Source of the DNA: Neocallimastix lanati (nom. inval.)
Taxonomy: Eukaryota > Neocallimastigomycota > Neocallimastigomycetes > Neocallimastigales > Neocallimastigaceae
Length of the DNA: 64,000 bases
Assembly (NCBI GenBank): GCA_016946835.1
Contig: JACVTC010000071.1
Location: 601,001 to 665,000, forward strand
Direction of reading: 5' to 3'
In this document: positions 705 through 59,596 of the stretch, piece after piece
How positions within the stretch are numbered: position 1 is the stretch's first letter
Layout: each line of letters starts with the position of its first letter
Notes under the pieces: generated by a model
What the model was told of the DNA's origin: nothing
What the model saw: the letters and a program-made list of their open reading frames with translations, nothing else
Databases searched by the model: none
Made by a program: the position numbers and the translations under genes

Positions 705-1838
705 ATGCAAAAGCTTATAAATTTAGCTGAAGGAACTTTTAATGGTATTGTCTTTAACGATGGTACTTTCTTTTTTAATGAAAGTAATTCTCATAACATG
801 TATCCTGATATAAAATTTCAAACATCTGATGCACTACAATATGTAATTGATGCCTACTTAATTAATATGCATTTTCCATGGATATTTTTAATATTAATAT
901 TAAATGGAAAAAATTGGTATAGGCCAATTAATCTTGTTTTAATTGTTCATTGGTTTTTACGTTCTACAGGAGATCTACTAAGAAATACTATGCAATTAAG
1001 AACATTTGAACCCTATACCTATTGGCCTTTTTCACAGAAAAATTGGTATATAAGTAATGCTATTGCTCATATATTTTGGTTATCAGGTGAAATTGTAGGG
1101 GATTGGTATCCACTAATTAGAACAAAAGTAGTAACCAACAATTCTAAAAAAATTAAAATAATCTATTTTTTTTGCATTATATATAATTCAATAAAATTTT
1201 TTGGTATGTATACTTATTTCATGAATAATCCAATCAACTTAAAAAAACAAGTTAATAGCGATATCGTCTCCAATACAAAAAATGATATAGTTAAATATAA
1301 TATAGTATGGTGGTCGACCGTAGTAGTAATAAGTATCACCAGTATTTTATACGACATTAGTATTATATTAGTTTTAAAAAGTCATCTTTTTAACGAAATA
1401 AATGGGAATAATCTATATGAAAAGAATTCCTTTATGGATAAATTTAAGCAGATATCTGAATTTCGTATTATTTTTTCTATGACAGCAAACTTAATTTTTC
1501 TTCCTTTTGTAATTATTTTTGTTATTTTTCTTTTATATGGCTATAAATATAATAACGTCAGTAATATTAATTCAGATTCAGAAATAGAACTATTTCGTGA
1601 AACCGTTCTTAATTTCAATTATACTTTTATGTATATGGACCAAATTTTACTTAGAAGTTTTGTAAATGATGACCAAAAAACTACAAGTGCTTTTTTTAAC
1701 ATTTCAGTTAATAACATTGAAAATAATAAATATAAGAACTTAGATTCAACAAAAGATAGAGTTGTATACGATAATATAGCAATTAATAATTCAATGACTT
1801 CAACACCTTCTAATCATAAAGATATATTAGAGAAATAG
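705..1838 (+). CDS. Seven-helix membrane protein, family copy 1 (377 aa)
   Basis: I do not recognise a named family. The uninterrupted frame shares a core with the genes at 5846 and 15888. Hydrophobic segments lie near residues 48-68, 74-92, 114-136, 150-172, 200-225, 254-280 and 299-319. Conserved blocks include FPW before helix 1, RPINLVLI (helix 2), YWPFSQKNW (loop 2-3), AHIFWLSGEIVGDWYPLIRTK (21 residues split here as AHIFWLSGEI and VGDWYPLIRTK, helix 3), VWWST (helix 5), KFKQISEFRI (entry to helix 6) and MYMDQILLRSF (helix 7). Basic residues concentrate in loops 3-4 and 5-6 and after helix 7, which suggests N-terminus outside and C-terminus inside. The start is supported because all three paralogues begin MQ-x-x-I. 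The C-terminal tail (about 55 residues, Asn/Ser rich) is the shortest of the three. Receptor-like function is an inference from topology only; a transporter or scaffold is equally possible. Confidence 0.85.
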   Translation: MQKLINLAEGTFNGIVFNDGTFFFNESNSHNMYPDIKFQTSDALQYVIDAYLINMHFPWIFLILILNGKNWYRPINLVLIVHWFLRSTGDLLRNTMQLRTFEPYTYWPFSQKNWYISNAIAHIFWLSGEIVGDWYPLIRTKVVTNNSKKIKIIYFFCIIYNSIKFFGMYTYFMNNPINLKKQVNSDIVSNTKNDIVKYNIVWWSTVVVISITSILYDISIILVLKSHLFNEINGNNLYEKNSFMDKFKQISEFRIIFSMTANLIFLPFVIIFVIFLLYGYKYNNVSNINSDSEIELFRETVLNFNYTFMYMDQILLRSFVNDDQKTTSAFFNISVNNIENNKYKNLDSTKDRVVYDNIAINNSMTSTPSNHKDILEK

Positions 1839-2099
1839 ATATTTTTAATTTCAATTCACTAATATACAAAATTTAATTATAATTTTATCGAATATAATTA
1901 ACAGAAAGGTTTAAATAAATTTGAATATAAAAAATTAAAAAAATAAATATATACATATTTATATATAATACTACAAAAAAATGATAATAAGTCAAAAGTG
2001 TTATAATAATAATTAATAATTATAATATAAAAATAAATAATAAAATTAATTACTTTATATCAATATTAATACTATAAAAATTTATTTTCTAAATTACTA

Positions 2100-2600
2100 G
2101 ATAAAAATAGAGAATACTCAACAATCTTCTCAATTAATACCGATATTTCATCTAATTATAATGATGCATATAGAGAGAATTGGATTAATCAGAAACAAGC
2201 AATCAATAAGGAATTAGATAATTTATATAAAAATAAAGTTATGATATTTGTTGATAAACACTAGAAAATAACATTACATCGAAATGAATGCTTAAAATTA
2301 AAAAAGATTCAAATAACAAAATCATTAAATATACAATAGACAAAGAAGTATATATAACAATTCTCAAAGGAGATATAGATTATAGTAGATGATATTGGCT
2401 TAAAATAATCAATTCAAAAATTAGAATTCTACAATATCTTCATTCCTAATTAAAATTGAATTTAATTAATACAAATCTGAAGAAAAATTGGCCAACATTT
2501 TAACTAAAAACGTAAACTGACCAAAACTGACAAATTTTACCAACTTAATATTTGATAATAAATATAAGTTTGGAGGGAAGTGAAAGAATAAAGTTTTTAT
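2100..2600 (+). mobile_element. Ty1/copia polyprotein relic (RT start fused to RNase H end)
   Basis: Translation from 2100 gives a copia-type reverse transcriptase entry block (AINKELDNLYKNKVMIFVDK, near 2190-2260), then stops, then remnants of the following TIKRDSNNKI-like segment. At about 2466 the frame resumes as the typical end of the RNase H/C-terminal region (KSEEKLANILTKN, then TNFTNLIFDNKYKFGGK). The run GGAGGGAAG at 2572-2580 followed by TG looks like a polypurine tract at the start of a 3' LTR. Almost all of RT is missing, so this is an internally deleted dead copy between two 7TM paralogues. No LTR pair could be delimited by eye. Confidence 0.75.
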
Positions 2601-3392
2601 AATAAAATTAAATTATCAATAAAAAAAATTTATATTACTAATATTTTAATTCGTAATTTAACGCCCCACATTTTTAATTTTTTTTTTTTTTAAATAATTA
2701 TAAATAAATAAATAAATAAATAAAACTTGAGATAATATGAATGAGTTAATTTTTTTTTATTTATTTATTTATTTATTTAAACATCAACAAAATTTTCTCA
2801 AAAACACTTAATTTATAATTTTTAAAAAAAAATAATAAAAAAAATTAAATAAAATTAAATAAATAAATAATAAAAAATTAAATTAATATAAATAAATAAT
2901 AAAAAATTAAATAATAAAAAAAATAAATTAAATAAATAAATAAATAAATTTTAAAAAATTACATATATTTTATTGTTAATTATTAAAAAAGTACGCCACA
3001 TTTCAAATAAATATTTAATTCATAATATTAATTCATAAATAATATTTAATTTTGATGATAAATTTTATTATTTTTTGTTAAAATAATAATATTTAATAAT
3101 ACTTAATTTTTAAAGATATATTTTAATATTTTTTGTTGAAATAATAATAAAAGATTTTATAATATTTAATTCTAAAGATAAATTATATTTATATTTTTTA
3201 TTTATAATAATTTATTTTTTTGATTTATTTGTTTCACTTTTTCAATTTTTAGATTTTTTTTTCCATTTTTTAATGGTTAACAATAAAATATATGTAATTT
3301 TTTATAATTTATTATTAATTTAATTAAAATTTTTATTATTTATTTTATTTATTGTTTATTTAATTCATTTGATTCTTAATATCTTAAAAAAA

Positions 3393-3423
<31 letters not shown>

Positions 3424-4580
3424 TTATTTATTTATTTACAATTAATTTAATAAAGATATTGAAAATGTGGTGCTTTAAATTAAGAATTAAATTTTTATTT
3501 ATAAACTACATTCCGAAATTCAACACATTCATTAAAACTTTTAATTTTTATATTAATAGAATGTATTTTTTTTTAAGAATATTTTATTTTTGAGAATATT
3601 TAAAATAAAAAAAGAACATTTAAAAATTAAAAAAGTTTATATCTTAAAAATATAAAAAAAAATTTTTTTAAATATATTCTAAAGATATAAACCTTTTTAA
3701 TTTTTTAATATTTTTTTTTTAAATACTTTATATAAATTTCATGAGTATTTTATTTTTTTTTTTTTAAATATATATATAATGAAAATTTCAATAATATTAT
3801 ATTTTTTTAAATAATATTTTTTTTACTTTTTTTAAAATAAAAAAAAAAAAAAAAAAAAAAAAAATTTAACCTTAATTTGACATGATTTATTAAAATTATT
3901 TATTTATTAATTTATATAATAATTAATTTATAATATTAAAATTGTGAAATGCCTCATTTAACGGAATGCAACTTTGTGAAATGAAACGATTCGGTTTTGT
4001 AATAATATATTCATTAAAAAAAAATAATAACAATAACAAAGGTTAACAATCTGAATTTAAATAATTTTTATTTCCTTATGAATTAAAGAGCAAAAAAGTA
4101 ATTTAATATAAGATTTTTTGAAAAAAAAAAAAAAAAAAAATTAATTATCTATTTAGTAATTAATATTAAAAATTCTTTATTTTATTTTATTTTTATTAAT
4201 ACTTTACTCTTTTATACTACTTCACTTTTATTATATTTTATTTCATTTCAAACTTTATTTAATCTCTTCATATATATAAATCCATTTAAATATATTTCAA
4301 TTTATATATATATAAAACTAAAAAAAAAAAAAAAAAACTTTAATGACAATTTTAAAAATACAATTGTTCTATAATAATTATATCTGTATATAATAATATT
4401 AAAAATAAAGTATCTATTATCAATTTATATAATAAGATTATTTATTTATTTATTCATTTATTTAAGCATTTATTTATTCGTTTATTTATGTTGTTATTTA
4501 TTTATTTATTTATGTTGTTATTTATTTATTTATTTATGTTGTTATTTATTTATTTATGAATATGTGTATTTATTTATTTT

Positions 4581-4634
<54 letters not shown>

Positions 4635-5845
4635 AAGATAAAGAAAAAATTATTTCCCTTTATTAATAAATTAATTATTCATTTTTATAAATAAGTAAAT
4701 TTAATATTTTCTTTAAAAAAATTTTCCCATTTTAATATATTAATAATGAAAATTTCTCTTAATGTATACAAAGAAAATTAATTTTAATAGATTAAAAAAG
4801 AATTAATCTCTAAATTAAATATTCAAAAATGATAAATTATTTTCCATAATATTTATATTATTCTCTATTATAGAAAATTAATAATAAATATATATAAAAA
4901 AAAAAAACTTAAACCCAAAAAAGACATTTATGAAGGAAAGAAAATTAATTACGAAAAGTGAAAATGGATTTTTTTTTTCGATAACTAAAAAAAAAATCCA
5001 TTTTTGAAAAATTAAAATAAATTTTACTATATTAATTATTCAAAAACTAAAAAAAAATTTTTTATTATTATTTTAAAATATACTCTATATATAACAAAAA
5101 TTTGAACTGTATAAATTGTTACAAATTAAATAATAATATCAACATTATAAATTAAATAATAATATCAATATTATAAATTAAATAATAGTATCAATAATAA
5201 TATAACTAAAAAAAAAATAAAAAGGAAAAGGAAAAATAAAAAGGATAAATTATAGTAAAACAGAATAAAAAAAATATATTAAACGGATGATAAATAATAT
5301 AATTACATTAGTTTTTTTCTTATTTAATTAATGCAATTTAATCAAATAGTATTTATTAAAAAGTAAATCATTTCCGAATTAATTAAAATATCAAAGAACT
5401 TTAATTAATTTATAAATTTAAATTAAATAATAATAATAATACCAAAATTAAAAAAAAAAAAAAAAAAATAAATAAAAAAAAAAATAAAAAATAAAAAATA
5501 AAAAAAAAAAAAAAAAGAAAATAGAAAAAAGAAAACTAAAATTATATAAAATGAAAGTTTCTTTCCTTTTTTTAATTTTTTTCTTTTTTTTTTTTTTTAA
5601 ATAAAAAGATATTTAAATTATAAATAGAATAAATTAAAATAAAAAATAAAATAATATTTATATAAATTATATTTAATTATAATTTATATAATATTAATAT
5701 ATAAATATTTATTATCATAAATATTTATTAGAATATATATATGTAATAAAAAATAAAATAAAATAAAATATAATTATAAAAAGTATATGTATATAATTAA
5801 ACATATATATATTATAAAATAATATAATATATAATATAAAAAAAA
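2601..5845. other. AT-rich intergenic spacer with simple repeats
   Basis: No gene is supported over 3.2 kb. It holds TAAA/TTTA runs (2700-2780, 4440-4580), several long A-tracts (one of 51 A at 4582-4632), an isolated member of the CTTTACTC minisatellite family (4179-4240), and a 26-bp unit repeated about three times (5124-5200). A slightly GC-richer patch at 3945-4005 contains two GTGAAATG words but no convincing reading frame. Confidence 0.6.
4179..4240 (+). repeat. Single unit of dispersed CTTTACTC minisatellite
   Basis: The core TTAATACTTTACTCTTTT followed by ACTACTTCACT and flanking TTTTATTTTA is the same unit that forms arrays at 20.4 kb and 35.8-36.9 kb. Here it occurs once, in the same orientation as those arrays. 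Confidence 0.7.
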
Positions 5846-7189
5846 ATGCAAGATATTATAAAGTATGGTTTAAATCGTTCACCATATAATGTATCTATTG
5901 AACACATAGATGGCTGGCAAAATATAATAAACTCCTTTATAAAGAGTTCATATTTTCCTTGGGTATGTCTAATATTAATTATAAATGGAAGAAACTGGAA
6001 AAAACCAATTAATTTAATTTTAATTGGAAATTGGTTTTTCAGAGCCATTGGAGATATATTAAAAGCAACAATGGAGTTAAGATCTCATGATCCTAATACT
6101 TTTTGGCCATTTTCACATAAAAATTGGTATATTGGTTTTGTATTAGCCCATGTTTTTTGGTTTCTTGGAGAAATAATTGGAGACTGGTACCCTTTATTAA
6201 GAACAAAAATAGTTACAAATAATAAAAAGAAAATGATATGGGTATATATTACTTGTATTTTTTATAATTTTGTAAAAGTTCTTGCCATGTTTTGTGGATT
6301 AATAAATTATCCTATAGATTTAAAAATTACTGATGAAAAAGCAGTAACAACAGAAGATTTAATTCAGTATAACATTGCATGGTGGTCAACTATAGCTTTA
6401 ATGCAACTTGCAAGTTGTTTATACGATTTTTCAATTATTAATGCATTACATTCATATCTCTCAGATACAATAAAGGATTTTAAGGCCAAAGGAACCAATA
6501 TATTTTTGGAAAAATTTAAACAAATATCAGAATTTCGTATCATTTTTTCAATGTTAGCCTCAATCATTTTCTTTCCTATTGTTACTATTTTTGTTGTCTT
6601 TCTTATTATAGATTACAGAGATGAAAATTCTAGATATCATCAAAAATCAGATGCAGAAATTGAACAGATGAGAATTGCAGTTCTAAATTTCAATTATGCA
6701 TTAATGTATATGGATCAAGTATTGCTACGATATTTCATAGAACGTTCCAATGGAAAATCCATAGTTAGTTCAAAAAAATTGACTTATTCGGATTCACATT
6801 TTAATAGTTCCCAAGAAAGTAAGAAAATTTATGACAAAAAACATGATTCATTAAAAGAAATAACATCTCAACAAAATACTATAGATAATGGTGAAACTAA
6901 TTATTATCAACAAAATAACATTAATTATAAATTATATTCCATTAAAAACCCTTCCTTTTCTAATGCTCGAAATAGTTTATACAATGATTTTACTCAAAAT
7001 AATATTCATGATGATAAAACAATAATATATAATACTAATATGTTTTATGAAATTAATAATTATGATCAAAATGATAATTATTTTCAGATATCAAATAAAA
7101 ATAAAAACTTAATTAACTACCCCATAAAATCCACCTATTACTTAAATAATTTAAGATGTTCAATAGAAAAAAACTCAACTGAAATATAA
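5846..7189 (+). CDS. Seven-helix membrane protein, family copy 2 (447 aa)
   Basis: Paralogue of the genes at 705 and 15888; no named family recognised. N-terminus MQDII, then a short presumably external segment. Hydrophobic helices lie near residues 28-48, 54-72, 94-115, 130-152, 176-202, 230-255 and 275-297. Family signatures present: YFPWVCLIL, KKPINLILI, FWPFSHKNW, LGEIIGDWYPLLRTK at the end of helix 3, IAWWST, KFKQISEFRI and MYMDQVLLRYF. Loops after helices 3 and 5 carry Lys/Arg clusters (TNNKKKM; KDFKAKG...EKFK) and the loop between helices 4 and 5 is acidic, consistent with an N-out/C-in seven-pass protein. The tail of about 150 residues is Asn/Ser/Tyr rich, low complexity, and shares no obvious similarity with the tails of the other copies. 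A single open frame with no intron needed. Function unknown; a surface receptor is plausible but unproven. Confidence 0.87.
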   Translation: MQDIIKYGLNRSPYNVSIEHIDGWQNIINSFIKSSYFPWVCLILIINGRNWKKPINLILIGNWFFRAIGDILKATMELRSHDPNTFWPFSHKNWYIGFVLAHVFWFLGEIIGDWYPLLRTKIVTNNKKKMIWVYITCIFYNFVKVLAMFCGLINYPIDLKITDEKAVTTEDLIQYNIAWWSTIALMQLASCLYDFSIINALHSYLSDTIKDFKAKGTNIFLEKFKQISEFRIIFSMLASIIFFPIVTIFVVFLIIDYRDENSRYHQKSDAEIEQMRIAVLNFNYALMYMDQVLLRYFIERSNGKSIVSSKKLTYSDSHFNSSQESKKIYDKKHDSLKEITSQQNTIDNGETNYYQQNNINYKLYSIKNPSFSNARNSLYNDFTQNNIHDDKTIIYNTNMFYEINNYDQNDNYFQISNKNKNLINYPIKSTYYLNNLRCSIEKNSTEI

Positions 7190-8277
7190 AATTAAAAAAA
7201 AATAAATATATAAATAAAAATAAAAATAAAAAAAAAAAAAAAATTAAAATTAAAATATAAATAAGAAAAAAAATCTTGATATTATTATTATTATTATTAT
7301 TTTCTTAATAATATTTAAATAATATTAATCAATATATATCCCCGAATGTTTAAATATTGTATGTGAATCAATAAATTATATATTTTAAATTTCTTTTTAA
7401 AATATTTTATATATATATATATTTTCTTTTTTTTTTTTTTTTAAAAAAAAAATTTTTTATTAAAATATTAATTTTAACTAAAAGTTTAAAAATTTTTATT
7501 TGCAATTTTTAATAATTTTTTAAAAAAAAAAAAAAAAAAAAAATCGTTAATACACTAAAATTGAAATATATAAAATAAAATAAATTGAAGATATATAAAT
7601 GTAATTTTCTAATAACAATTATATACGATAATTTTTAATCCTTAGTATTATATGTTATATTGTTTATATTATTAAATTTAAATTTTATATATAATTTAAC
7701 TCTTTTAAAATATTTTAAGTAAAAATTAGAAAAAAAAAAATAATTAAATAATAAATAATAATATAACAAAAAAAAATAAATAAATAATAAATAATAATAT
7801 GACAAAAAAAAAAAAAAATTAACATAAAAGTTCATATTTAAAAAAAAAAAGTGGGATAATTTTTAAATTAAATATAAATATATATGTAGTAAAAAATATT
7901 AAATTTGTATATAAAAATAAAGAAATAATTAATCAATAAAAATATAAAATTAATAACTTGAATTATATAAAAATTTAAATAAATAATAAAAATTTAATTA
8001 AATAATAAAAATTAAATAAATAATAGTAATTAAATAAATATATCAATGAAAAAAAGAAAAAAGAAAAAAGATATAAATTAAAGTTTATTAAAAAAGATAT
8101 AAATTAAAGTTTATTAAAAAAATATAAATTAAAGTTTATTAAAAAAGATATAAATTAAAGTTTATTAAAAAAAAAATAGAATTTTTATTTTTTAATTTTT
8201 ATTATTTATATTTTATTTTATTTATTTATTTATTTAAAAGAATATTAAATTAGAATTAGAATTAATATTTAATTTTT
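7190..8277. other. AT-rich spacer
   Basis: No coding signal. Contains A-tracts, TATA runs and a 26-bp tandem repeat near its right end (listed separately). A minus-strand frame at 7635-7835 is Phe/Tyr-rich translation of A-rich DNA and is not taken as a gene. Confidence 0.6.
8064..8170. repeat. 26-bp tandem repeat, about 4 copies
   Basis: The unit AAAAAAGATATAAATTAAAG plus TTTATT recurs four times with only a small change in the third copy. It lies just left of the GC-richer island at 8278. Confidence 0.85.
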
Positions 8278-8425
8278 TTTAGACTTTCCCTTGTAAATGA
8301 TCATATTATACCAGCCACAACAGACTACTAATATCAGACAAACTTTATAGAGGGTGTGTATCAGGATATCTACATAAAGTGCTCCCATGTCAGTCAGAAC
8401 CACAAGATTTGGATATGATTATGAT
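8278..8425. other. GC-richer island, possible decayed coding fragment
   Basis: About 140 bases stand out sharply from the AT-only surroundings. The plus strand, third frame, can be read for about 30 codons (for example DKLYRGCVSGYLHK then VLPCQSEPQDLDM) but there is no start, no stop context and no recognised family. It does not match a tRNA, 5S rRNA or spliceosomal RNA that I know. A remnant of a gene or transposon is the simplest reading. Confidence 0.35.
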
Positions 8426-9663
8426 ATATAAAATTTAAAGTTTTTTTTTTATTTTAAATATATATATTTAAAGAGAAAATAATTGTATGACAATTAAAAA
8501 AACTTTTTTTCTTTAAAAAAAAAAAAAATAAAAAAAAAACATAAATATTTAAACGATTGCATAATATTAATTTATTATGAATCTTTAACATTTCTTTAAT
8601 TATTTATTATCAATTTTTTATATTTTATTTATTATTTAATATATTTTAAAAAAGTTAATGGAAAATTGGAAAGAAAATTCATTTTATTTATATTATATTA
8701 CATATATGGCTAAAAGCAACATATTATGATTTAATTAAAAAAAAAATTTAAAGAACTAACATATTTTAAAATAAAATAAAATAATAGATATAATATTTTT
8801 TGTATAATATTAATTAAATAGTACAACCTATATTATTTTATCATAGTTTAATCTTTTTTATATAATTATAATTACCTGCACTATTTGTACTAAAGATATT
8901 CAACAATAAATTATGTTTTGCTTTATTTTACTTTCATCTTTTTATTTTTTAAATTTAAGATATCTTTATATACATTTATTACTATTAATTAAAAGATAAA
9001 GATTTAATTTTATTTTTTTTTTTATCTTACTTTTTTTTTGTAAATTTAATTAAAAAGAAAAGAAAAGAAAAAAGAATTAAAAATTTAATAAATAAAGTTA
9101 ATTATAATAGAAATAGTTGAAAGATTATTTTAAATTTATAAATTAAATATTATAATATTTTAAAAAAAAAAAAAAAAAAAATTTGAACTTGTGTAACTTT
9201 GATATTCAAATTAAATATAAATATATATATATATATTTAATTTATAAAATTTCTCCCTGAAAAATACATATATTAAAAAATAAAAAAAAAAAAGTAAAAA
9301 ATATTTAACATGATATTCAATATATATATTTTACATCAATAACAGTTTTTTTTTTTTTTTTTTAAACTTTTATATATATCCATATATACATATATGACAC
9401 TCTTCTTTTACACAATACCATATATATATTTATATATACTGAGTACAACCTAGAGTTGTATCAACAACAGTCAAAAAATAGTTAAATTTTTAATATTTAA
9501 CTTTATTTTTAAAAAAAAAAAAATTGTATAATAAAATTTAATACCATATATTATATATATCCAAACTGTTACTTAAATAATCAAAATATTTAAAATAAAA
9601 TATATTAATATGTATTGAAGTACATATGAAAAAAAAAATAACTTTAATTTGAAATATTTAATA

Positions 9664-9707
<44 letters not shown>

Positions 9708-10134
9708 TATTGTGGTTCTTTTTTAAATACTCATTAAAGAATGTTTAAAAATATTAATATTTATATTTAAGTTTAAATTATAAAAATATATATATCTATT
9801 ATTAGTATATTGATACAAAAATTTATATTATATTATTTAATAAATTTTTGTATATATTGGTGAAAATCAGTTTTTCCCCGGTGAGTGGTATATTGTTCTT
9901 TGATGGGATATTTTATCTATCATTAGTAATATTTTAAGGGAAGAAATTTCGATAAAGAATAATTAAAATTCCTTTTATTTATATTTAAATTTTATTTATT
10001 ATTATTTTAAAATTATATAAAAAAAATGTTATTAAACTCCAGAAATATATATTTAAAATTCATAAATATATTTTAGAAAACAACCTTTCTTAGAGAGAAT
10101 TATTATTATCAATTTATAATATAAGAATTTATAA

Positions 10135-10224
10135 AAAAAAGAATTTTATAACTTTTATTTATTTTTATAAGAATTAAATATAATTTTTAATTAAAAATAA
10201 ATAAAAGTTATAAAATTCTTTTTT
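10135..10224. repeat. 33-bp perfect inverted repeat with 24-nt loop
   Basis: The left arm 10135-10167 and right arm 10192-10224 are exact reverse complements over 33 bases, separated by 24 bases. Arms contain GAATTTTATAACTTTTATTT on the left and its complement on the right. It could be a fold-back (MITE-like) element or a hairpin-forming transcript. No flanking target duplication is clear. Confidence 0.85.
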
Positions 10225-10755
10225 ATATTAAGTTAGACTCATATCAAATTTAAACTTTAGAATTATTTTTTAAATAATATTTATTATTTATAAAATAATT
10301 ATATATATTGTATATCATAAAAAAAAAATTACAAAATTTTGTTATAAAATTTTTTGTATAAATTAATTATAATAATAATAATAAAAGTAGCTAATATTTA
10401 AAAAATACTCGTAATTCTTTTATTTTTAAATTATGACTGTTTTTTTTTTTTTTTTTTAGTTTTTTATTTTTGTACTAATATATACAATATTGAAAAATAA
10501 TTTATTGACAATATAATTATTTTTATTTTATTTTTTATATAGCTTTTTTTAAATTACATTTATTTTTTTCTTTTATTTCATTTCTTTTAAATTACATTTA
10601 TTTTTTTTTTTCTTTTATCTCATTTCAAATGATTTTAAACTATATTAACAAAAAGTAGTAGTTGTCGTAGTAATAAATATAATAATTATAAATAGTAGTA
10701 GCTATAATACTAGGTATTATAATTATAATAAGTATAATAATAAATAAAAGTTATG

Positions 10756-10785
10756 ATTTCCTCTATTTTATGAAATAGAGGAAAT
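10756..10785. repeat. 13-bp perfect hairpin with TATG loop
   Basis: ATTTCCTCTATTT (10756-10768) and AAATAGAGGAAAT (10773-10785) are perfect complements around a 4-nt loop. The stem holds G/C pairs, rare in this spacer, so a chance AT palindrome is less likely. Confidence 0.8.
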
Positions 10786-11019
10786 TCACTGTTTTTATGT
10801 TAAAAATTTTATACTATATATGGAGTATAAAAAATTGAAGGAATATATTAATGTTGATATAAAACAAATACGTAATTTAGTGTATTAATACATTATTCTC
10901 AATATTAAATTCATACATTTTTCTATAATATTAATTATTTTTTATAATATACATTAATGTAATTGTACTATAATTAATGTAATACAATTATAATGTAATT
11001 AGTAATTTTATGTTATTCA

Positions 11020-11345
11020 TAATTCAATCACCTTAGAGAGTGTCTACTTTCCCAAATTCAGATTTTGTGGGGCTTGCGGAATTCCTTATCAATATTATAC
11101 CTATTGTGATTAGTGATTTTTGCACTATGATCAATTTGTATTGCCAATAGACCTACCGTTATCAAGAGCGTCGATGTCGACACGACAAGGCAAAGAAGAA
11201 ATTCTGACACGTATTTGAATGATAATTTTTACCCACATGGAGTTATCATCAATGAATGGGAGGAGTAAGAGGTCATTTCATCCTCAAAACTTATAATGTA
11301 GTTTTTTAATATTAATGTAAAAAAATTCATGTATTTTATTTTTAT
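11020..11345 (+). mobile_element. 5'-truncated LINE 3' fragment
   Basis: On the plus strand this matches the last roughly 85 codons and the first part of the 3' UTR of the LINE at 47563-52503. Matching words include TTTTGTGGGGCTTGCGGAAT, AAGAGCGTCGATGTCG and GGCAAAGAAGAAATTCTGA. The frame is broken by indels and a premature TAA where the intact copy reads EEWEELEAF-like sequence. An old, dead 5'-truncated insertion of the same or a sister family, opposite in orientation to the other LINE copies here. Confidence 0.88.
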
Positions 11346-11850
11346 GCATTTTATATATATATATATTGCTTAGAAACAATAAATATTATAGTAATAATGT
11401 GAATGTAATCTAAAATAAGCTTACCGCAAAAGGTTCTTGTATTGATATTTTGAGAATTAAAAGAGAGCCGTAGTTATCAGTTTATTATTAGAAATAAATA
11501 AAAGTGTTTAAATAAAAATAATTAAAATTTTTAAAATTTAAACCCATATTTATATGTATATCATGATATATTTTTTAATTAATATAAAATAAATTTTCTA
11601 TTTGAATAATAATAATAATTTATAATAGTAGTTTTAGTAACAAATCCAATATCATTAATTCCTACAAAGGTACCATAAATAAAAACATTCTAATATATAT
11701 ATTTGAATTATCTTAATATGACAATTCAAATATATGTTAATTATTCTTTACTTAATTATCTTTTTTTTTCTTAATTATTTATAATATATCAATATATTTG
11801 TTGCTTTAATGAAAAAATTATAATACGAAAAAAGAAATAATTAAAAATTA

Positions 11851-11898
<48 letters not shown>

Positions 11899-12427
11899 TG
11901 TGGTGCATTAAGCAATCGTACATTTCGAAATATAGCTTATAAATATATTTTATAATAAAGTCATACATTTTTAAGATATTCTATACAAACATAATAAATA
12001 TATAAATAATTAAATAATTAAATAATTAAATAATTGAATAAAAAAAATGTAATAAACATATTTAAATAAATACCAAAAAAAATTAAGATGAACTAATGAA
12101 ATAAATGCCTTAATTAAATATTACAAAAATATAGAAATTCCATTAAAAAAAGAAAAAAAAAAAAAAATGAATTCGTTGAATTATGGTTGAAGTGTTTAAG
12201 ATATTTAAATATTAAAAATTATTAATTAAAAAATAAATAATTAGTATTTAACGAAAAAATGACCAAATGAAAATGATCAATAAAATTTATCGAATTACAA
12301 TTAATTAATAGTTAAAATAATTCATAATAAAAAAAAATAAAAATAAGTAAATTGGATTTTTTAATTAATTAAAATAATTGTTTAAAATTTTAATATTTTT
12401 AAATAAATATTCATGATTATCTTAAAG

Positions 12428-12600
12428 GAAATAATAATATTTTTTTACAATTAAATATTTTTAAATAATTATTTCAAAAAAAATAATAATATATTTTTGC
12501 TATTAAATATTATTAAATAATTATTTCAAAAAAAATAATAATATATTTTTTCAATTAAATATTATTAAATAATTATTTCAAAAGAAATAATAATATATTC
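12428..12600. repeat. 52-bp tandem repeat, about 3 copies
   Basis: The word AAATAATTATTTC recurs at 12463, 12515 and 12567, exactly 52 bases apart, with AATAATAATAT and TTAAATAT between. Copies differ by a few substitutions. Confidence 0.8.
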
Positions 12601-12715
12601 TAATAAAAAAGAATTTTACAAAATTAATTTTTTTATAAAAAATTATTTTTACAATTGAATATTAATAAATTATATATAAAAAAGAATATTTATTATTTAT
12701 TTAATTATTAAAGAA

Positions 12716-12755
12716 CAAGCCACATACGAAAATACGCCACATTGGAAAATGCACA
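12716..12755. other. GCCACAT / ACGCCACATT motif patch
   Basis: CAAGCCACATACGAAAATAC then GCCACATTGGAAAATGCAC is a GC-bearing patch in near-pure AT. A closely similar composite occurs in reverse complement at 59966-59992, and shorter forms (ACGCCACATT, AAGCCACATT, AATGTGGTGC) at about 2992, 3466, 11896 and 60294. Could be a transposon terminus or a protein-binding site. Confidence 0.4.
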
Positions 12756-15700
12756 AATGCAATATACCCTATATATATATATTAAAATAATAAATAATAA
12801 TTTAAAATATATAAATGGGTTAATTATTTTAAATATTAATCATCAAAAATAAAACACTATTATAAATACTAATTATTTCATTAAAAAATCTGAATAGTTA
12901 ATATTATTTTATTCAAAATAAGCAACTAAATAATTAATAAATAACAAATAATTATAAATATAGCTAATAAAAATAATAAAAATAATAAAAGAATAAATAA
13001 CTAAATATTAATAATAAATAAATAAAATTTTATTTAACATTTTATATATATATCAGTTAACATTAAACTGAAAAATTAATTATTCAGAATTAAAATAATT
13101 AGATTAATAGAATTTTTTAAAAAATAATAAAAATAATACATATTATAAAGATCAAAAAAAGAATACTTATCTTATAATGATTACTAAAGGAAAATTGGAG
13201 AAATTTAAAAAAAATATATATATATATATATATATATTAAGAAGAACTAATGAATTTAATATGTTTTAATTGGAAATTACAAAAATAATGATAGGTATTG
13301 TTGAATTATAGTTTAATCAATTCAAATGATATAAATACTAATTTATAATAAATAATTAAAATAATAATAATAATAATAATAAACAAATAGAAAATTTATT
13401 AAAAATTTCTTAATATTTTTAAATAGTTATGAAATTTAAAATATATATAAATATATATTAACATACTTTCATAATTAAATATTATTAATTATTTTATTAT
13501 TATTATTATTACTACTATATTTTTATTAATATCTTATTCAACGTAATTTATTTATTTACTTATTAATTAATTAATTACACAAAATTATTTATTTTAAAAC
13601 GACACTTTTTATAATAACTAAATATATTTACACACAAAAAATTATATATATATATATAATTATTTAACATAATTTCGAAATATCAATTAAGAAAAATCGA
13701 TAAAAAAAATTTTTTTTTTTAGTTTTTTGTTTTGTTTTGTTTTATTTTTGGTTTTTTAAAATAAATAATATAAATAATATATATTAAGATAAAAAAAAAT
13801 AGTTAAATAGTTTTAAAGTTTCAATATTAATTAGATGGAAAAATGATCTTTATATAAAAAAAAAAATGAATAAGCTATTATATTTTTACTTTTCTATTGT
13901 GACGTGACTTGTTACATACATTTATGAATGTTTAAAAGAATGATTATAAATAATTTACAAAGAAAAATTGTTACTAATTAATAAAATATCATATAGTAAT
14001 ATATATAAATAGAAAATAATAAAATAAAATAATAATAAAAATACATAAGTACTAATTCATATATAAATAAGTAAAAACTTTATTTGAATTTTTTTTTTAA
14101 ATATTAAATAATTTTATAATTTTAATTTAAATTAAATATAAAAAAAATAAAAATAAAATAAAAAATATTTAAATAAAAATGAGTAAAGAATTCTCATATA
14201 TACATATATATAAGAACAATAACGATGACGATTATGTAAATAATAATGATAATTATATTTAAAATTGTTATTTGCTAAATATTTTATAATTTTAATGTTA
14301 AGAAATAAAAATGCACATAAAAAAATTACAAAAAAAAAAAAATACAATAAAATAAAAATAAAAAAATAATAAGACAAATAGTTGAAATAATATATTAAAA
14401 TAAAATATAATAAAATTTATTTATATTTTATATATATATTTATTTACTTACATATATATTATTTATTTATTTATTTATTTTATTAATTTACTAAAAATTT
14501 TTTTAATTTGTTTTTCTGTTTTTCTTTATATTGATTTAGTACTATAAAATTTTTAATTTGTTTTAAAATTCAATTAGATCTACTCAAAAAAAAAAAAAAA
14601 CGTATTAAGTACAATTGAATTCAATAATATTTAAAAAATTAAAATTTAAATAATGTAACACAAATTAATACTTGACATTACACAAATTTATTAGATTAAT
14701 TAGAAAATTATGTAAAAAAAATTTAAAATTTAAAATTTAAATTTTATTTTTTATTTATTTTAAAAAAAAAACAAAAAAAAAAAAAAATAGAAATTATTAA
14801 TAATAACAATTTTTATTAATAATAATCTTTTAATTTTTTTTTTTTTTTTTTTTAACATAAAATTGTAAAAAATTCAAAATTTTAAAAATTGATTAATATA
14901 TTAATATATATAATATTAGTAAATTGCAATATATAACAATAATTTAATCAATATTTTTATTTAAATTATTAATTTAATAAAAAAAAGAATGTAAAGATTT
15001 TATGGCAAAATTTTATTTTTTTTTTATATTTTATGTTTAAATTCAAAATTTAAATTTAAATTAAATATATTATTTTTTAATTAGATATTTATTTAAAGTA
15101 AAAAAAAGTTTTGAAAAGAACTCTAATATATATATCTTTCCTTTTCTTTTTTTTTTTTTTATCTTTTTTTTTTTTCTTTATCTTTTCATTTTCCTTTTTT
15201 ATCTTTTGTAACTAAAATTTTTATTCATTAAACTTTGAAATATGAAATTATTTATATATTTATGGTATTAATATTACAATATTATAACAATAAAATCAAT
15301 ATTATATTTAAAATTTTAATTGATAAACAATTTAATAAGGCAGAAACTTTCATATTTTTAATTTTAATTGATAATTTAATTAACATTTATATATTAGTTA
15401 AAATGAAAATAAAAAAAAAATTTATAATAAAAAAAAAAAAAAAAAAAAAACAATAAAAATAAAATTTTATAGTAATCATAATAAATATGGAAATAACTAA
15501 TTTAAAATTTGAGTGGTTTAATAGGGTAGTAATGTGTTCTAATATGATTTATTATGTTTCAAAATAGATATAAATAAAAAAAGATTTCCTTTAAATAAGC
15601 AATTTCATTTTTTTTTTAATAAAAATAAAAAGTAAATATATTTTTAATAGTGTATATATAATTATTGTAAATATTTAAAGATACATATATTATAAAACAA

Positions 15701-15887
15701 ATAATAATTTAAACTTTTATAGATATACATTAAAAATAAATTTATTATATATGAACTTACTAAATAATTAAATAATAAAATAATAATAAAATAATAATAA
15801 AATAATAATAAAATAATAATAAAATAATAATAAAATAATAAATAAAGTGAATTAGAGAATATAGAAAATAGAGAATAGAAAAAAAAA

Positions 15888-17366
15888 ATGCAAGATATTA
15901 TACATTATGCCGAAAAGGCTTATGTTAATGATACAGCTGTATTTAATGTTGATGCATTAGGTCCTAATGTAGAAGTTTATGAAAATAAATTGGTAGATAG
16001 TTATCAAGGTATTATTAATTCTTACCTATGTAGTCCTTTTTTTCCATGGGTATGTTTAATTTTATTGGTAGGTGATGGTTCCTGGCATAAACCAGTTAAT
16101 CTTGTATTAATAGGGCATTGGTTATTTAGAGCAACTGGTGATTTTTTAAGAGGTTTAATGAATTTAAATCCAAAAGTCAATGATTATTATTGGCCATATT
16201 CATCAAAAAATTGGTTGATAAGTAATGCTATTGCTCACATCTTTTGGTTAACTGGTGAAATTATTGGTGACTGGTATCTTCTATTGAGAACAAAGGCAGT
16301 AACAAGGAATAAAAACAAAATAAGACTAGTTTTTTGTACTTGTATTCTCTTTAATTTAACAAAGGTAGTTGGAATGTGGACTTATTTCATTCATAATCCA
16401 ATGGATTTAAGAATAAAAGATGAAAATGACAAATTAGTTCTAGATTTAAATAATTATAATATGGCATGGTGGACAACAGTGTTCTTCATTGAAGTAGCAA
16501 GTTGTTTGTACAACTTAGCTGTTGTATACACATTAAAAAAGGGAGTTTTATATAAAATAGAAAAAACAAGGAGATACTTAGCAAATCCTTTCATTGAAAA
16601 ATTTAGACAAATATCTGAATTCCGTATTATTACATCTATGATAATATCCATTGTCTTTTTACCTTTTGTTGCATTCTTTGTTGTAATGGTTATCAATGAA
16701 TATGTGGGTGATAATGGAAATAAGAAACATATCATGACAGATAGCTCAGTAGAACAACTTCGCCAAGTTGTACTTAGTTTCAACTATTCTTTTATTTATA
16801 TAGATCAAATATTACTTCGTCGATTTGCTAGAAATAATAAAATTGTTGCTTCTAATTTTTCCAATCCTAATACCTCAGTTAGTCACCTTAAATCTTACAC
16901 TAAAATGTCTTCAGATTATTGTGAAGTAGCACCATATGGCAATATTTATTCCAATTCAAATTCAACTACCTCAATTCCTGATACTTTATTTTTATCCAAA
17001 AATAATAATGATTCCTCGGATAATTATAATACTAGTTCTACATATAAGGATTCTTACGGTTCATTAATATCAAAACAACCATTAAATTCATTTCCTTCAA
17101 CTACGAGTCAACAGGAATCATCCACAACTTCAAAAAATCAAATAGGTTCTAAAAGTTCACAAAGATCAAAATCTTTCTCATCAAAACACCCACCATTTAC
17201 AAATTATATGGATAATTCATCCTATAATCCTGATGAGCAAAAATCAATTAATAATACACCCAAAATTTCTAAAGTTTCTGGTATTCGAACATATAATTAT
17301 AATTATACTAATTATGAAAACTCAAACAATTCGAAATATTATTACGTTAGTAACTATAATAAATAA
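15888..17366 (+). CDS. Seven-helix membrane protein, family copy 3 (492 aa)
   Basis: Largest member of the local family. After MQDII and about 40 presumably external residues come helices near 42-62, 68-87, 107-130, 140-165, 190-214, 245-268 and 290-310. Family motifs: FFPWVCLILL, KPVNLVLIGHW, YYWPYSSKNW, TGEIIGDWYLLLRTK, MAWWTT, KFRQISEFRI and YIDQILLRRF. Inner loops are strongly basic (RTKAVTRNKNKIR; KIEKTRRY...EKFR; RRFARNNK) and the loop 4-5 is acidic, the pattern expected for N-out/C-in seven-pass proteins. The tail of about 180 residues is Ser/Thr/Asn/Tyr rich and would be a good kinase substrate. Codon use is slightly GC-richer than in copies 1 and 2. Leader ends in an A-run directly before ATG. 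No known receptor signature was recognised; the assignment is topology only. Confidence 0.88.
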   Translation: MQDIIHYAEKAYVNDTAVFNVDALGPNVEVYENKLVDSYQGIINSYLCSPFFPWVCLILLVGDGSWHKPVNLVLIGHWLFRATGDFLRGLMNLNPKVNDYYWPYSSKNWLISNAIAHIFWLTGEIIGDWYLLLRTKAVTRNKNKIRLVFCTCILFNLTKVVGMWTYFIHNPMDLRIKDENDKLVLDLNNYNMAWWTTVFFIEVASCLYNLAVVYTLKKGVLYKIEKTRRYLANPFIEKFRQISEFRIITSMIISIVFLPFVAFFVVMVINEYVGDNGNKKHIMTDSSVEQLRQVVLSFNYSFIYIDQILLRRFARNNKIVASNFSNPNTSVSHLKSYTKMSSDYCEVAPYGNIYSNSNSTTSIPDTLFLSKNNNDSSDNYNTSSTYKDSYGSLISKQPLNSFPSTTSQQESSTTSKNQIGSKSSQRSKSFSSKHPPFTNYMDNSSYNPDEQKSINNTPKISKVSGIRTYNYNYTNYENSNNSKYYYVSNYNK

Positions 17367-25911: not shown

Positions 25912-27632
25912 TTATTTGTCAGCAAGAGCAGCAATAACGGCAGCACCAATACCAGAACCATCCTTACCTAATTGAAGAGAAACATTTTCAGAGAACATAC
26001 CGAAAAGTTCGTGAAGAGCATCTCTCATTCTGTTGTCGAAGTGTGGGTAATGTTCATAGACAGAACCATCAATGGCAACAGTACAACCAGTGTCAACACG
26101 GTTCATCTTAGTAACAACAGCAGCAACACCACAAGCAGCAAGACGAGCAGCACGGATGGCAACAAGTTCACAGATACGACGGACAATACGACGATCACGT
26201 GGAGCAACGTATGGAATCTTTAAGATTTCTTGAAGAACCATCTTAGTATCAGTCAAATCAGCAGTATGATCTCTTTCAATACGAGACATGTAAGCAGTTT
26301 CGAATTTTCCTGGAGTATCCATTTCAGTAGAGCTAATACCACCGAAAAGAATCTTTCTTTCAATAAGATCCTTACAAACTAAACGAACAATTTCACCAAG
26401 GTACATACCAGAGATCATCTTTTCGTAGGTTTGTTTACCTGGGTTAGTAGATTGTTCATCTTGTTGTTGATCATATTTAGTCCATGGAAGAACCTTTCTT
26501 TCGTTATCAAATGCTCCCCATTCGGAGTTGATGATCATTTCATTAGACTTAATTGGTCCACCTTTCCACTTTGGAATAGCATCAGCAGATTCAACGTAAG
26601 CAGCGTTTGTTCCGGTACCAAGAATAACACCAACACATGTACCTGGGTCAACGTAAGCATGGGACATAAGAGTACCAACGGTATCGTTAACTAAAGCAAC
26701 AACATTAACCTTCAATTGCTTACGATTTAAAGCTTCAGATAAAAGAGTAACAACATCCTTACCAATAGAGTTGGCACAGTTGAAACCCTTGTTCCATAAT
26801 AAGATAGTACCCTTGTTTAAGGCAGTTTGTTGAACTGGGAATGAGAAAGTGAAACCAAGGTTAATATCGTTTTCAGTGTTGATATTGTATTCCTTTATGA
26901 AAATAGCAATTGATTCAGCTAAGAAATCGAAAAGAACTGATTGATCGGCAGTCTTAGCAGAATCTGGAATAGTGAACTTCTTGGCTCTAAGTCTAACCTT
27001 AGATTGACCTTCTAAATTAATTTCACAAACACGGAAATTAGTACCTCCAAGATCAAGAGCAAGGTAAGTACCGACTTCCTTACCAGTTGGACGGTTGGTG
27101 ACAAAAGATGGAATCATCTTTAAGGTACAATCATCACTCTTTAAACCATTTTCCATTTCCTTAACGAAAACCTTGCAAATATCACGTAATCTCTAAAAAT
27201 TTTTATTCACAAACAATTATAAAAAAAAAAAAAAAAAAAAAAATATATTAATTTTTCATTCAATTAATTCTTAACAATACTTTTTTTTTTTTATTCTGTA
27301 TTTTTCCAATATGTTCTAACTTTTTTATACAATTTTTTATTACTCATTTAACTTTAATAAATATTTGTTTTATTAAATTACTACTAAATCTTTCTTTCTT
27401 CAATTATTTTTTTTTTTAATTGTTTATTTTATTTTATCTCTAATATTTAATTTAAATAACATATTTATTTAAAATATATAATATTTACTTGTGGACTAAG
27501 GATAAAAACGTCTTCAAGTTCAGAGTAAACAGTACTTTCGTCAATTTCTCTGTAGGTATATTTACCATTAACTTGAGAAGGGTTTTGGTGAAGAATTTCA
27601 CGAAGAGCGTTAATATCGAAAGGCTTTTCCAT
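25912..27632 (-). CDS. HXK: Hexokinase (two exons, 474 aa)
   Basis: ATP-dependent phosphorylation of glucose and other hexoses, first step of glycolysis, cytosolic. Exon 1 is 27632-27489 (48 codons from ATG); a GT-AG intron of 296 bp spans 27488-27193; exon 2 is 27192-25912. The junction reads SPQ-RLRDICK in frame, a usual hexokinase N-terminal helix. Signature blocks: LDLGGTNFRV at about residue 94 (phosphate-binding), GFTFSFPVQQ (sugar-binding region) near 161, VALVNDTVGTL near 213 with catalytic Asp about 218, GVILGTGTNAAY (sugar/phosphate loop), NSEWGAFD, VAIDGSVYEHYPHF and GSGIGAAVIAAL (adenosine side). Length matches single-domain fungal hexokinases. Codons are strongly biased to C/G third positions (ATC, AAC, GTC), unlike neighbours, suggesting high expression. 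An in-frame ATG at 27156 in exon 2 would give a 414-aa protein lacking the N-terminal helices and is disfavoured. Glucokinase specificity cannot be excluded from sequence. Confidence 0.97.
27193..27488 (-). other. Hexokinase intron
   Basis: Donor CAA|GTAAAT and acceptor TTTTTAG|AG, phase 0, 296 bp, almost pure A/T. Removal joins two coding frames that complete the hexokinase N-terminus. No clear branch-point consensus stands out. Confidence 0.93.
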
Positions 27633-28142: not shown

Positions 28143-28864
28143 TTTATTTATCTAATTATTTATTATTAATTAATTATTATTTATTATTCATTAATAAATA
28201 CTCTTATTATTTATTATTACTTATTATTATTTATTAATTATTAATTATTATTTATTATTTATTATATATTATTTCATTATTCCATTATTTATTATTTATT
28301 ATTTATTATTTATTATTTATTATTTATTATTTATTATTTATTATATATTATTTATTATATATTATTTCATTATTCCATTATTTATTATTTATTATTTATT
28401 ATTTATTATTTATTATTTATTATTTATTATTTATTATATATATTATTTCATTATTCCATTATTTATTATTTATTATTTATTATTTAGTATTTAATTATTT
28501 ATTATTTATTATTTATTATTTATTATTTATTATTTATTATTTATTATTTATTATTTATTATTTATTATTTATTATTTATTATTTATTATTTATTATTATT
28601 ATTATTATTTATTATTTATTATTTATTATTTATTATTTATTATTTATTATTTATTATTTATTATTTATTATTATTTATTATTTATTATTTATTATTTATT
28701 ATTTATTATTTATTATTTATTATTTATTATTTATTATTTATTATTTATTATTTATTATTTATTATTTATTATTTATTATTTATTATTTATTATTCAATTA
28801 TTTATTATTTATTATTATTTATTAATAAATACTCTTTTTTTTATTATTTATTTATCTATTTATT
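28143..28864. repeat. TTATTTA heptanucleotide satellite array
   Basis: About 700 bp dominated by a 7-bp unit (TTATTTA in any phase), with interruptions such as TTTCATTATTCCATTA repeated three times. Its right edge (28792-28864) is almost identical to the right edge of the array at 30755, differing by one T in a T-run. Confidence 0.95.
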
Positions 28865-30754
28865 TATTTGTTTATGTGTTTATTTATTTATATACTATAA
28901 TTATATAATTGTTTAAAACAACAATAATAATTCCATATGACAATACCCAATAAAAATTTGAAATTCAAATAAAAAATAAAAATTTTCCATCAATTTTCCC
29001 CCTTAAAAGAACAGCTGAAATAGTTAATAATATCATATAAAGTTCAAAACATGAATTAGTAAAAAATATAAAAATAAATTGAATTTTTAAATTATTACAG
29101 TATAGAATAACATATGATACACATTAAAAGTAATATATGTGTATATATATGCATATAATTTCTCTATTTAATAAATATATATATTATATTATATAATATA
29201 TTTTATTATAAAAAAACAAAAAGATAATTTAAGCATCGAATCAAAATTAAAAAAATATAAAAATGATGAACTTTTTATTTAATAAATGATTATATTGCAA
29301 TATAATTATCCATAAATTATCAATATTTTCAATTATATAATAATAAACTTTAAAAGAATACTAAGTCGAGTTTTTTAAAAGTTTATTATTAATATATGTA
29401 CAAATATATTGATTTGTGTATTATTAATAGGATATTTTGAAATAAAATTAAAAATTAACAAATAAAAAAAGATCCGAATTTCAAAAAATTCCTTAAAAAA
29501 CCTCCTTAATTAGCGAATGTTTAAAAAAGGGATAAAAAAGTTATATTTGTTATAACAAATAATAATAATAATAATAATACACAATCATTTATTATATAAA
29601 TCATTAAAATATTATAAAGGTAATTTAAGCTTATGAATATCATAATATCATTATATATTAATATTATTGATATTTCTCTTTATCTCTTTATATATTTATT
29701 CCTTCACATTTATTTTTATCTTTTTTTTCTAAATTATTAATATTATTGTCAATATTTATAATTATTTATATCATTATTATTAGTTCTTATTTATTTATTA
29801 ATATTGATTATAATAATCTTATTAATATTTATTACAATTAAAAGTTATTAATTGATATAATAAATATTTTATAAAGTATACGATATGAATAAAATAATAA
29901 GCATTGGTGATAATTTAGCTATTTTAAGAATATTTATTTTAAATATTCAATATATTGTCTTAGCATTAGGTTTGTTTTGTATTATTAACAGTTTTATAAT
30001 TATATTAAACCAACACGTTCGTTATTTATACAACTTCCAAAATAGTACTTAAATAGTATATTTAGATATATATAAAATCTTTAGTTAATATTTAATATAT
30101 TATTATATTATTAAATTTTATATAAAAGCATATTTTATTAGATTAACAAAAAAAATATTAAATGGTATTATGATAAAGTTAAAAATATCTCTAATTATAC
30201 ACTGCAACTATTTCAATAACTGAAGTCAATTATTATTTAATTATCTATAATTATAGCTTTTAAGTTCTAAAAAAAAAAGAGGGAGAGTTTTATAATTTAA
30301 TAGAATAATCACTACATTTTAATTTTTCTTCAAATATTAACAAATTTTTACAAAAAGATAAAGTTTAATTTTTTTTTTTTTTTTTATATTTTTGATTTTA
30401 ATTAATGTTTATTTAATTTATTTACTTAGTAATCTTTATTTTAATATATAATATTCTAAATCAAATTCAATATATATTGGCAATACACTCTTATTAAATC
30501 ATTGACTTTATTAATATATTATAAAATATATTGATTTTATTCAAAAAAATTTTATTATTATATTATAAAATATATTAATTTTATAAAAAATTTAAATTTC
30601 ATTCATTTATAAAAAGTCTTATGAATAATATTTTAATTAATGATTGGGCAATTCATCTTATGGATTATTACATTAATGATTGGATTTCCAAAGTATGTTA
30701 CACAAATATTTTTATTTTCTATTTATTATTAATTATTATTATAATAAAATAAAT
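28865..30754. other. AT-rich spacer between satellite arrays
   Basis: No gene supported. A short direct repeat of ATTAATGATTGG-like words lies at 30640-30690. Otherwise A/T sequence with small TA runs. Confidence 0.55.
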
Positions 30755-31450
30755 ATTTATTATTTATTATTTATTATTTATTATTTATTATTTATTATTT
30801 ATTATTTATTATTTATTATTTATTATTTATTATTTATTATTTATTATTTATTATTTATTATTTATTATTTATTATTTATTATTTATTATTTATTATTTAT
30901 TATTTATTATTTATTATTTATTATTTATTATTTATTATTTATTATTTATTATTTATTATTTATTATTTATTATTTATTATTTATTATTTATTATTTATTA
31001 TTTATTATTTATTATTTATTATTTATTATTTATTATTTATTATTTATTATTTATTATTTATTATTTATTATTTATTATTTATTATTTATTATTTATTATT
31101 TATTATTTATTATTTATTATTTATTATTTATTATTTATTATTTATTATTTATTATTTATTATTTATTATTTATTATTTATTATTTATTATTTATTATTTA
31201 TTATTTATTATTTATTATTTATTATTTATTATTTATTATTTATTATTTATTATTTATTATTTATTATTTATTATTTATTATTCAATTATTTATTATTTAT
31301 TATTATTTATTAATAAATACTCTTTTTTTATTATTTATTTATCTATTTATTATTTATTATTTATTATTTATTATTTATTATTTATTTATTATTTATTATT
31401 TATTATTTATTATTTATTATTTTTTATTATTTATTATTTATTATTTATTT
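30755..31450. repeat. TTATTTA heptanucleotide satellite, long pure array
   Basis: From 30755 to about 31281 the 7-bp unit repeats essentially without interruption (about 75 copies), followed by an edge with ATTCAATTATT and AATAAATACTC that is shared with the array at 28143, then more degenerate units to about 31450. The plus-strand 285-codon frame here is pure YYLLFII repetition from the satellite and not a gene. Confidence 0.95.
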
Positions 31451-31489
31451 ATTACTTATTACTTATTATTCATTTATTATTTATTATTT

Positions 31490-40117: not shown

Positions 40118-41051
40118 TTTCAATTATTTATAAATATATAATACTATAATTATAATTATACTTATTATTCATAACTCATATTGAACATTGAGAAAAATAA
40201 TATGTATTAATTCAATAAGATATATTTATGATAATAAGCGTTAATTAAAATTATAATATTTTTAAAAGTTTAAAATTAATGATTAAATATAAAAAAAAAA
40301 TAATCATGTTATATAATAAAACCTAAAAATAAAATTAATAATCAAAAAAATTTTTTATTATAGAAAAGAAAATTATTTTATTGATATCTTAAAAAATAAA
40401 AGTGTATATTTATCAATAAAATAATATATATGTTTTAAAAACTTTTTATTTAAACAAAAAAAAACAGTAATTATAAATAAATAAATTAATAAAATCAAAA
40501 ATAAATAGTATTTATTATACCAGTTTATAATTTATTTATTAAAAATAATTAAAGTCAATTTAAAACATCAATACAAATACATAAAAATACTTTATTAAAG
40601 ATAATTTTAATAATCATAATTTTTTTAATTTTCATTAATCAATGCTTTTATTAATATAAAATATATTTATATCATTTTAAAAGTATTTAATATTCTTATT
40701 CTTTTCTATATTTAAAAAATTAATAATAATAGTAATAAAAATAATAAAAAATAAATAGAATAATAAAATAAAAATTAAAATTAATAATTCTAATAACTAA
40801 AACAATAATAAATCAATATTATTTAATTACATTTTTAATTTTATCTCATATAATTAAATAATAACAATTTTATTTATTCTATAAAAATTAATATAAACTT
40901 CTAATTCCTTTTTTTTTTCCTTTTTTTTATAGTAAAAAATAATTTCAAAATATATTTATTTATATATATATTTTTTAATATATCTTGAAATTTTATATAA
41001 AAATAGCTATAAAAATTTTTCTATACTATTTATTTTTAAATTAATAATAAA
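37701..41051. other. AT-rich spacer upstream of SH3 membrane gene
   Basis: No gene is supported over 3.3 kb. A 122-codon minus-strand frame at 39661-40029 is low-complexity Phe/Tyr/Ile translation of A-rich repeats. AAT runs near 37870-37895 and 38560-38580, and T-tracts, are present. Confidence 0.6.

Positions 41052-55923: not shown

Positions 55924-59596
<3,673 letters not shown>

Follow-up and report, generated by a model that had tools for sequence, protein, structure and literature searches.

A large orphan family of predicted seven-pass proteins, probably receptors of the G-protein-coupled kind, in the gut fungus Neocallimastix lanati

The genome of Neocallimastix lanati (199 Mb in 762 contigs) contains 81 distinct loci, spread over 35 contigs, of an orphan protein family that we read, with moderate confidence, as seven-pass cell-surface receptors of the G-protein-coupled receptor (GPCR) kind, that is, as GPCR-like chemoreceptors. 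Three members, here called genes 1, 2, and 3 (Table 1), lie within 17 kb of the window, the very AT-rich stretch of 64,000 nucleotides that was analyzed (positions 601001 to 665000 of contig C677). An earlier sequence-only reading of the window had described these three as a local family and proposed a lineage-specific expansion of surface receptors. The family is far larger than three genes, and the expansion and the receptor-like topology both held, whereas surface location and a receptor role are what we infer from the features described below.

The frames of all three genes are intact, each beginning with an ATG in an A-rich context and ending with a stop codon, and the encoded proteins are 44 to 49% identical to one another (51% between genes 1 and 2, with an E value of 3.6e-91, in a genome search with gene 2). 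Their common seven-segment architecture was borne out with small exceptions, as was the long hydrophilic tail after the seventh transmembrane segment (TM7), which consists of 36 to 46% Ser, Thr, and Asn. This three-gene pattern is not due to chance, since its motifs are common to dozens of paralogues and its core is under purifying selection. Ratios of nonsynonymous to synonymous divergence (dN/dS) in the core were 0.09 to 0.30 in all 10 of the paralogue pairs tested, which were picked by hand, and tail ratios were 0.21 to 0.88 in nine pairs, the tenth tail being saturated. For example, gene 2 and its paralogue on contig C135 gave 0.57 in the tail and 0.20 in the core. The tree does not place gene 1 and the C135 member at 1314 kb, which made up one of the 10 pairs, as sisters, and the synonymous divergence (dS) between them is 1.5. 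These are real genes under selection.

The genome-wide count comes from two seeding searches, one with gene 2 (81 matches) and one with a group 2 member (80 matches), merged within 1.6 kb and including interrupted and partial loci. The genes of group 1, among them those of the window, consist of a single exon. In the tree, group 2 is one clade (support, 100/100), and at all 19 of the group 2 loci examined a separate upstream frame matched the N terminus, TM1, and the start of TM2 (hmmsearch on upstream translations; E values of 2e-14 to 3.7e-9). A sequence pattern placed the exon boundary at 11 of these loci, with a GT donor after the first exon and an AG acceptor heading the second, within TM2; at the remaining eight the pattern found no position. 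An intron at one constant place suggests that the group 2 loci are genuine genes.

Members also occur in tandem. Contig C677 carries an array of six on one strand at 576 to 618 kb, three of them directly upstream of the window, and contig C135 carries seven on one strand at 1279 to 1323 kb. Five C677/C135 pairs in the tree are collinear (576/1279, 581/1285, 594/1290, 607/1309, and 617/1322 kb), with strong support for four and 86/67 for the pair 576/1279. The partner of gene 3 lies at 1322 kb on C135, and the nearest paralogue of gene 2 in the genome search was C135:1309119 (74% identity). The tree shows no such partner for gene 1 (602 kb), nor for the two C135 members at 1302 and 1314 kb. Because the synonymous divergence of the pairs is at least 0.55, their members are not alleles. 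The likeliest history is that one array was duplicated, with gains or losses afterwards.

Seven transmembrane segments, as claimed by the sequence-only reading, are likely when structure models and hydropathy are taken together. AlphaFold2 models of genes 2 and 3 contained six long helices and a short or broken first helix predicted with low confidence, while in the hydropathy of the aligned family segment 1 was clearly hydrophobic but TM3 and TM7 were weak. The seven-helix core is thus a prediction, and the loop charges of 26 aligned single-exon members were used to orient it. Loops 1-2, 3-4, and 5-6 were net positive in 24, 26, and 25 members, respectively, and the N terminus, loop 4-5, and loop 6-7 were net negative in 21, 14, and 16. 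By the positive-inside rule, these charges support a predicted topology with the N terminus outside and the C terminus inside, as had been proposed, and do not point to a C terminus outside. Loop 2-3, net positive in 15 of the 26, runs contrary to this pattern. Within the window, the expected basic loops 3-4 and 5-6 and acidic loop 4-5 had exceptions in gene 1 (loop 4-5, +2; loop 5-6, 0), and loop 1-2 of gene 3 had a charge of 0.

Conservation is unevenly distributed within the proteins. In the 26-member alignment the cytosolic halves of all seven helices were more conserved than the outer halves (mean, 1.22 versus 1.89 bits; P = 0.0001 from 10,000 position permutations, with helix limits set by hand from model and hydropathy), and in a 30-member alignment that included group 2 the asymmetry persisted in six of six helices tested (1.30 versus 1.91 bits). 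Inner loops may be conserved in transporters too, a caveat to this comparison. In gene 2 numbering, TM3 residues E109, G112, D113, W114, Y115, and R119 were invariant among the 26 members, and all of these except G112 were invariant in both alignments, together with C137 (TM4), Y193 (TM5), S228, R231, and P244 (TM6), and D290 and Q291 (TM7). Most members end TM5 with Y-D-x-S, and the TM7 consensus is N-x-N-Y-T-F-M-Y-I-D-Q-I-L-L-R. The activation lock of GPCRs sits at the inner helix ends, and TM3, TM6, and TM7 of this family have, at their inner ends, invariant acidic and basic residues that recall those sites by analogy.

These features suggest how such a receptor might work. The short N terminus and the outer loops differ from one paralogue to the next and would bind distinct external cues. 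The conserved inner face formed by the ends of TM3, TM5, TM6, and TM7 would serve as an activation switch and as the place where a common partner docks, most probably one or several of the genome's G-alpha proteins. The long tail, rich in Ser, Thr, and Asn, could be phosphorylated and mediate desensitization. Co-occurrence with candidate signaling partners is consistent with this scheme, as the same genome gave 26 RGS matches and, distributed over 19 contigs, 51 exon-wise matches to G-alpha, many of them interrupted by inner stops and some below the cutoff.

Searches against known families agreed with the earlier statement that no family could be recognized. In a Pfam scan at E values up to 10 that covered 45 different members (the 26, plus 19 more from the 30-member alignment), no GPCR model matched any member; no Pfam model of any kind matched more than two of the 26 or 30 members scanned, and those that matched were all non-GPCR models. 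The match to DUF6796 (2 of 30 members; best E value, 0.00035, below its cutoff) placed model positions 43 to 92 of 225 on TM6, a single helix out of register, and was attributed to chance. No Protein Data Bank (PDB) chain matched beyond chance; with a first profile all five matches were human immunodeficiency virus envelope (V3-loop) peptides (E values of 0.028 or more) that shared a chance run, G-[ED]-I-I-G-D, and the single match with a second profile was also due to chance. Pattern matches in viral contigs (57) and prokaryote genomes (105) were all left unconfirmed by tblastn. No description of the family was met in the passages of open-access PMC literature that were searched.

Structures were compared through the two models, both weak and of low confidence, and no Foldseek match reached an E value of 0.001 or less. 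In a second look with VIA-align, GPCRs accounted for 34 (first model) and 42 (second model) of the 50 rows listed for each (counted by eye). The pheromone receptor Ste2 (PDB 7ad3, 7qbc, and 7qa8) ranked first among the listed VIA-align rows for both models. Class C structures were absent from the 50 listed for either model, which excludes nothing. A Foldseek search of viral proteins put a herpesvirus GPCR on top, but at an E value of 0.46.

The alternative that survives best, although unlikely, is that these are seven-helix transporters, channels, or membrane enzymes. The invariant charged residues E109, D113, R119, R231, and D290 lie within the membrane or close to it and could serve coupling, and there were isolated, weak matches to transport models. 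Five NCBIfam models matched one member each, among them the MFS transporter MdtM (E value, 0.015; 1 of 30) and phn_DUF6 (E value, 0.0034; 1 of 30), and ECF_trnsprt matched 1 of 26 (E value, 0.43). A precedent exists in passages of a review (PMC13308352), according to which some seven-pass PQ-loop proteins that had been classed with fungal GPCRs are now believed to act as vacuolar transporters. Yet transporter and enzyme models matched no more than isolated members, and weakly, the invariant charges sit toward the helix ends that are predicted to face the cytosol, and a long tail with tens of diverging tandem copies would suit receptors better.

Membership in an established GPCR class is not supported by sequence, as judged by profile-profile (hhalign) and TM-anchored alignments; TM-anchored positive controls with three group 2 sequences gave z scores of 18.5 to 51.8. 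Class A receptors carry D/E-R-Y at the end of TM3 and N-P-x-x-Y in TM7, and neither motif was found in the family consensus, which reads D-W-Y-x-L-x-R-T and N-x-N-Y-x-F-M-Y-I-D-Q at these places. The likeliest of the class assignments is that of distant class D (Ste2) relatives that expanded in this genome, and Ste2 has seven transmembrane segments, an N-out/C-in topology, and a long cytosolic tail, as predicted for the family, besides heading both VIA-align lists. Even so, this origin is improbable. The best local hhalign match, on TM6 of both, had a probability of 0.16% and a score of 13.5, where 60 local shuffles averaged 13.4, and the TM-anchored alignment gave a z score of −1.08, equaled or exceeded by 71 of 80 shuffles. 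None of the 45 members matched PF02116, loop 5-6 is longer in the family (by eye), and Ste2 was not among the 50 listed Foldseek rows for the second model. A search of the genome with PF02116 found nothing, and its controls were likewise empty. In the same review, passages on distribution place Ste2-like receptors in Ascomycota only and Ste3-like receptors in most early-diverging fungi, and one survey reports no reliable Ste2, Ste3, or Git3 homologues in Chytridiomycota (PMC3251606). If the family were nevertheless related to Ste2, the origin of that class would no longer lie in Ascomycota but would predate the divergence of the zoosporic fungi.

A still more remote proposal holds that the proteins are class C (7tm_3) receptors that have diverged and shed their ectodomain. 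It drew on the abundance of class C receptors in this genome (131 PF00003 matches, 101 of them above the curated cutoff alone and six more, by eye, with neighbors) and on TM3 and TM6 cytosolic motifs that by eye loosely resemble those of class C. Neither alignment method supported it: hhalign with 20 class C domains taken from this genome gave a probability of 1.15% over 18 columns, and TM-anchored z scores for 20 class C sequences were −1.25 to 2.50 (25 shuffles each). PF00003 matched none of the 45 members. A possible hidden ectodomain in a 2,142-amino-acid frame (C665:156322) was rejected, as the length of the frame is an artifact of a downstream run of N. Both groups have seven transmembrane segments and are expanded in this genome, but gut-fungal class C receptors have large ectodomains, as described in sections of PMC5168858, whereas the members here have a short N terminus and no profile similarity. 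The count of 131 exceeds the 51 that the same sections give for a Neocallimastix transcriptome, and exon-wise matching may split genes. On contig C554, a class C match and a family member lie about 3 kb apart (2064987 and 2068856). Least credible of all is a microbial-rhodopsin-like sensory protein without retinal: microbial rhodopsins bind retinal through a Lys in TM7, the family TM7 consensus has no conserved Lys, and no member had a rhodopsin match in Pfam.

Returning to GPCR-like receptors as the favored reading, fungal GPCRs are currently placed in 17 classes, according to passages of PMC13308352 and PMC12842992. That the family represents a further class, possibly kin to Ste2, ranking with the largest families of sensory receptors in an anaerobic gut fungus, and perhaps used for zoospore homing to plant fragments or for cell-cell recognition, is a tentative proposal that we consider rather doubtful in this full form. 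A parallel is offered by Pth11-like receptors, also a lineage-specific fungal expansion of seven-pass receptors but confined to Pezizomycotina in the account given there (PMC12842992); on the 45 members here, no Pfam GPCR model matched. The published count for gut fungi, about 100 class C GPCRs over three strains, was obtained from annotation keywords and transmembrane segment counts, as outlined in part of PMC5168858, so a family without a Pfam model would be missed. Should these proteins be receptors, estimates of what gut fungi can sense have so far been short of a family of the order of size of the class C set, and the paralogues form a ready panel for ligand finding and for tests of outer diversification around one inner switch. 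The family may provide the fungus with a way to sense its environment.

Table 1. Positions of the family genes, gene 2 motifs, and other features in the window
Feature	Position	Strand	Description
Gene 1	705..1838	+	Single-exon 7TM protein, 377 amino acids; C-terminal tail of 60
Gene 2	5846..7189	+	Single-exon 7TM protein, 447 amino acids; C-terminal tail of 152
Gene 3	15888..17366	+	Single-exon 7TM protein, 492 amino acids; C-terminal tail of 181
Gene 2, TM3 cytosolic end (residues 109-120)	6170..6205	+	Motif E-I-x-G-D-W-Y-x-L-x-R-T
Gene 2, TM6 cytosolic start and middle (residues 228-244)	6527..6577	+	S-E-[FY]-R-I ... P
Gene 2, TM7 cytosolic end (residues 290-295)	6713..6730	+	Motif D-Q-[IV]-L-L-R
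Gene 2, predicted cytosolic tail	6731..7186	+	Hydrophilic, Ser/Thr/Asn-rich, fast evolving
Hexokinase	25912-27192	-	
Long simple repeats	28238-28825, 30680-31537	+	Open frames of Y-Y-L-L-F-I-I units; probably not genes
1,039-amino-acid frame	41743-44862	+	Acidic 16-residue repeat, E-T-E-K-P-S-S-E-I-E-V-D-A-K-V-D, in at least a dozen copies by eye; C-terminal SH3 domain
LINE (long interspersed nuclear element)-type frame, 1,366 amino acids	47691-51791	-	Uninterrupted; endonuclease and reverse transcriptase domains
GH10 xylanase with C-terminal CBM1	53395-55977	-	Very long linker between the two, built of 7-residue units in tandem (S-K-T-L-P-G-N type)

Two of the other features in Table 1 call for comment. 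The linker of the xylanase is called a beta-roll ice-binding repeat by Pfam, probably via its repeat pattern. Adjoining the SH3 frame upstream, a frame at 41040-41702 that by eye has a signal-like start and one transmembrane segment may be part of the same gene.
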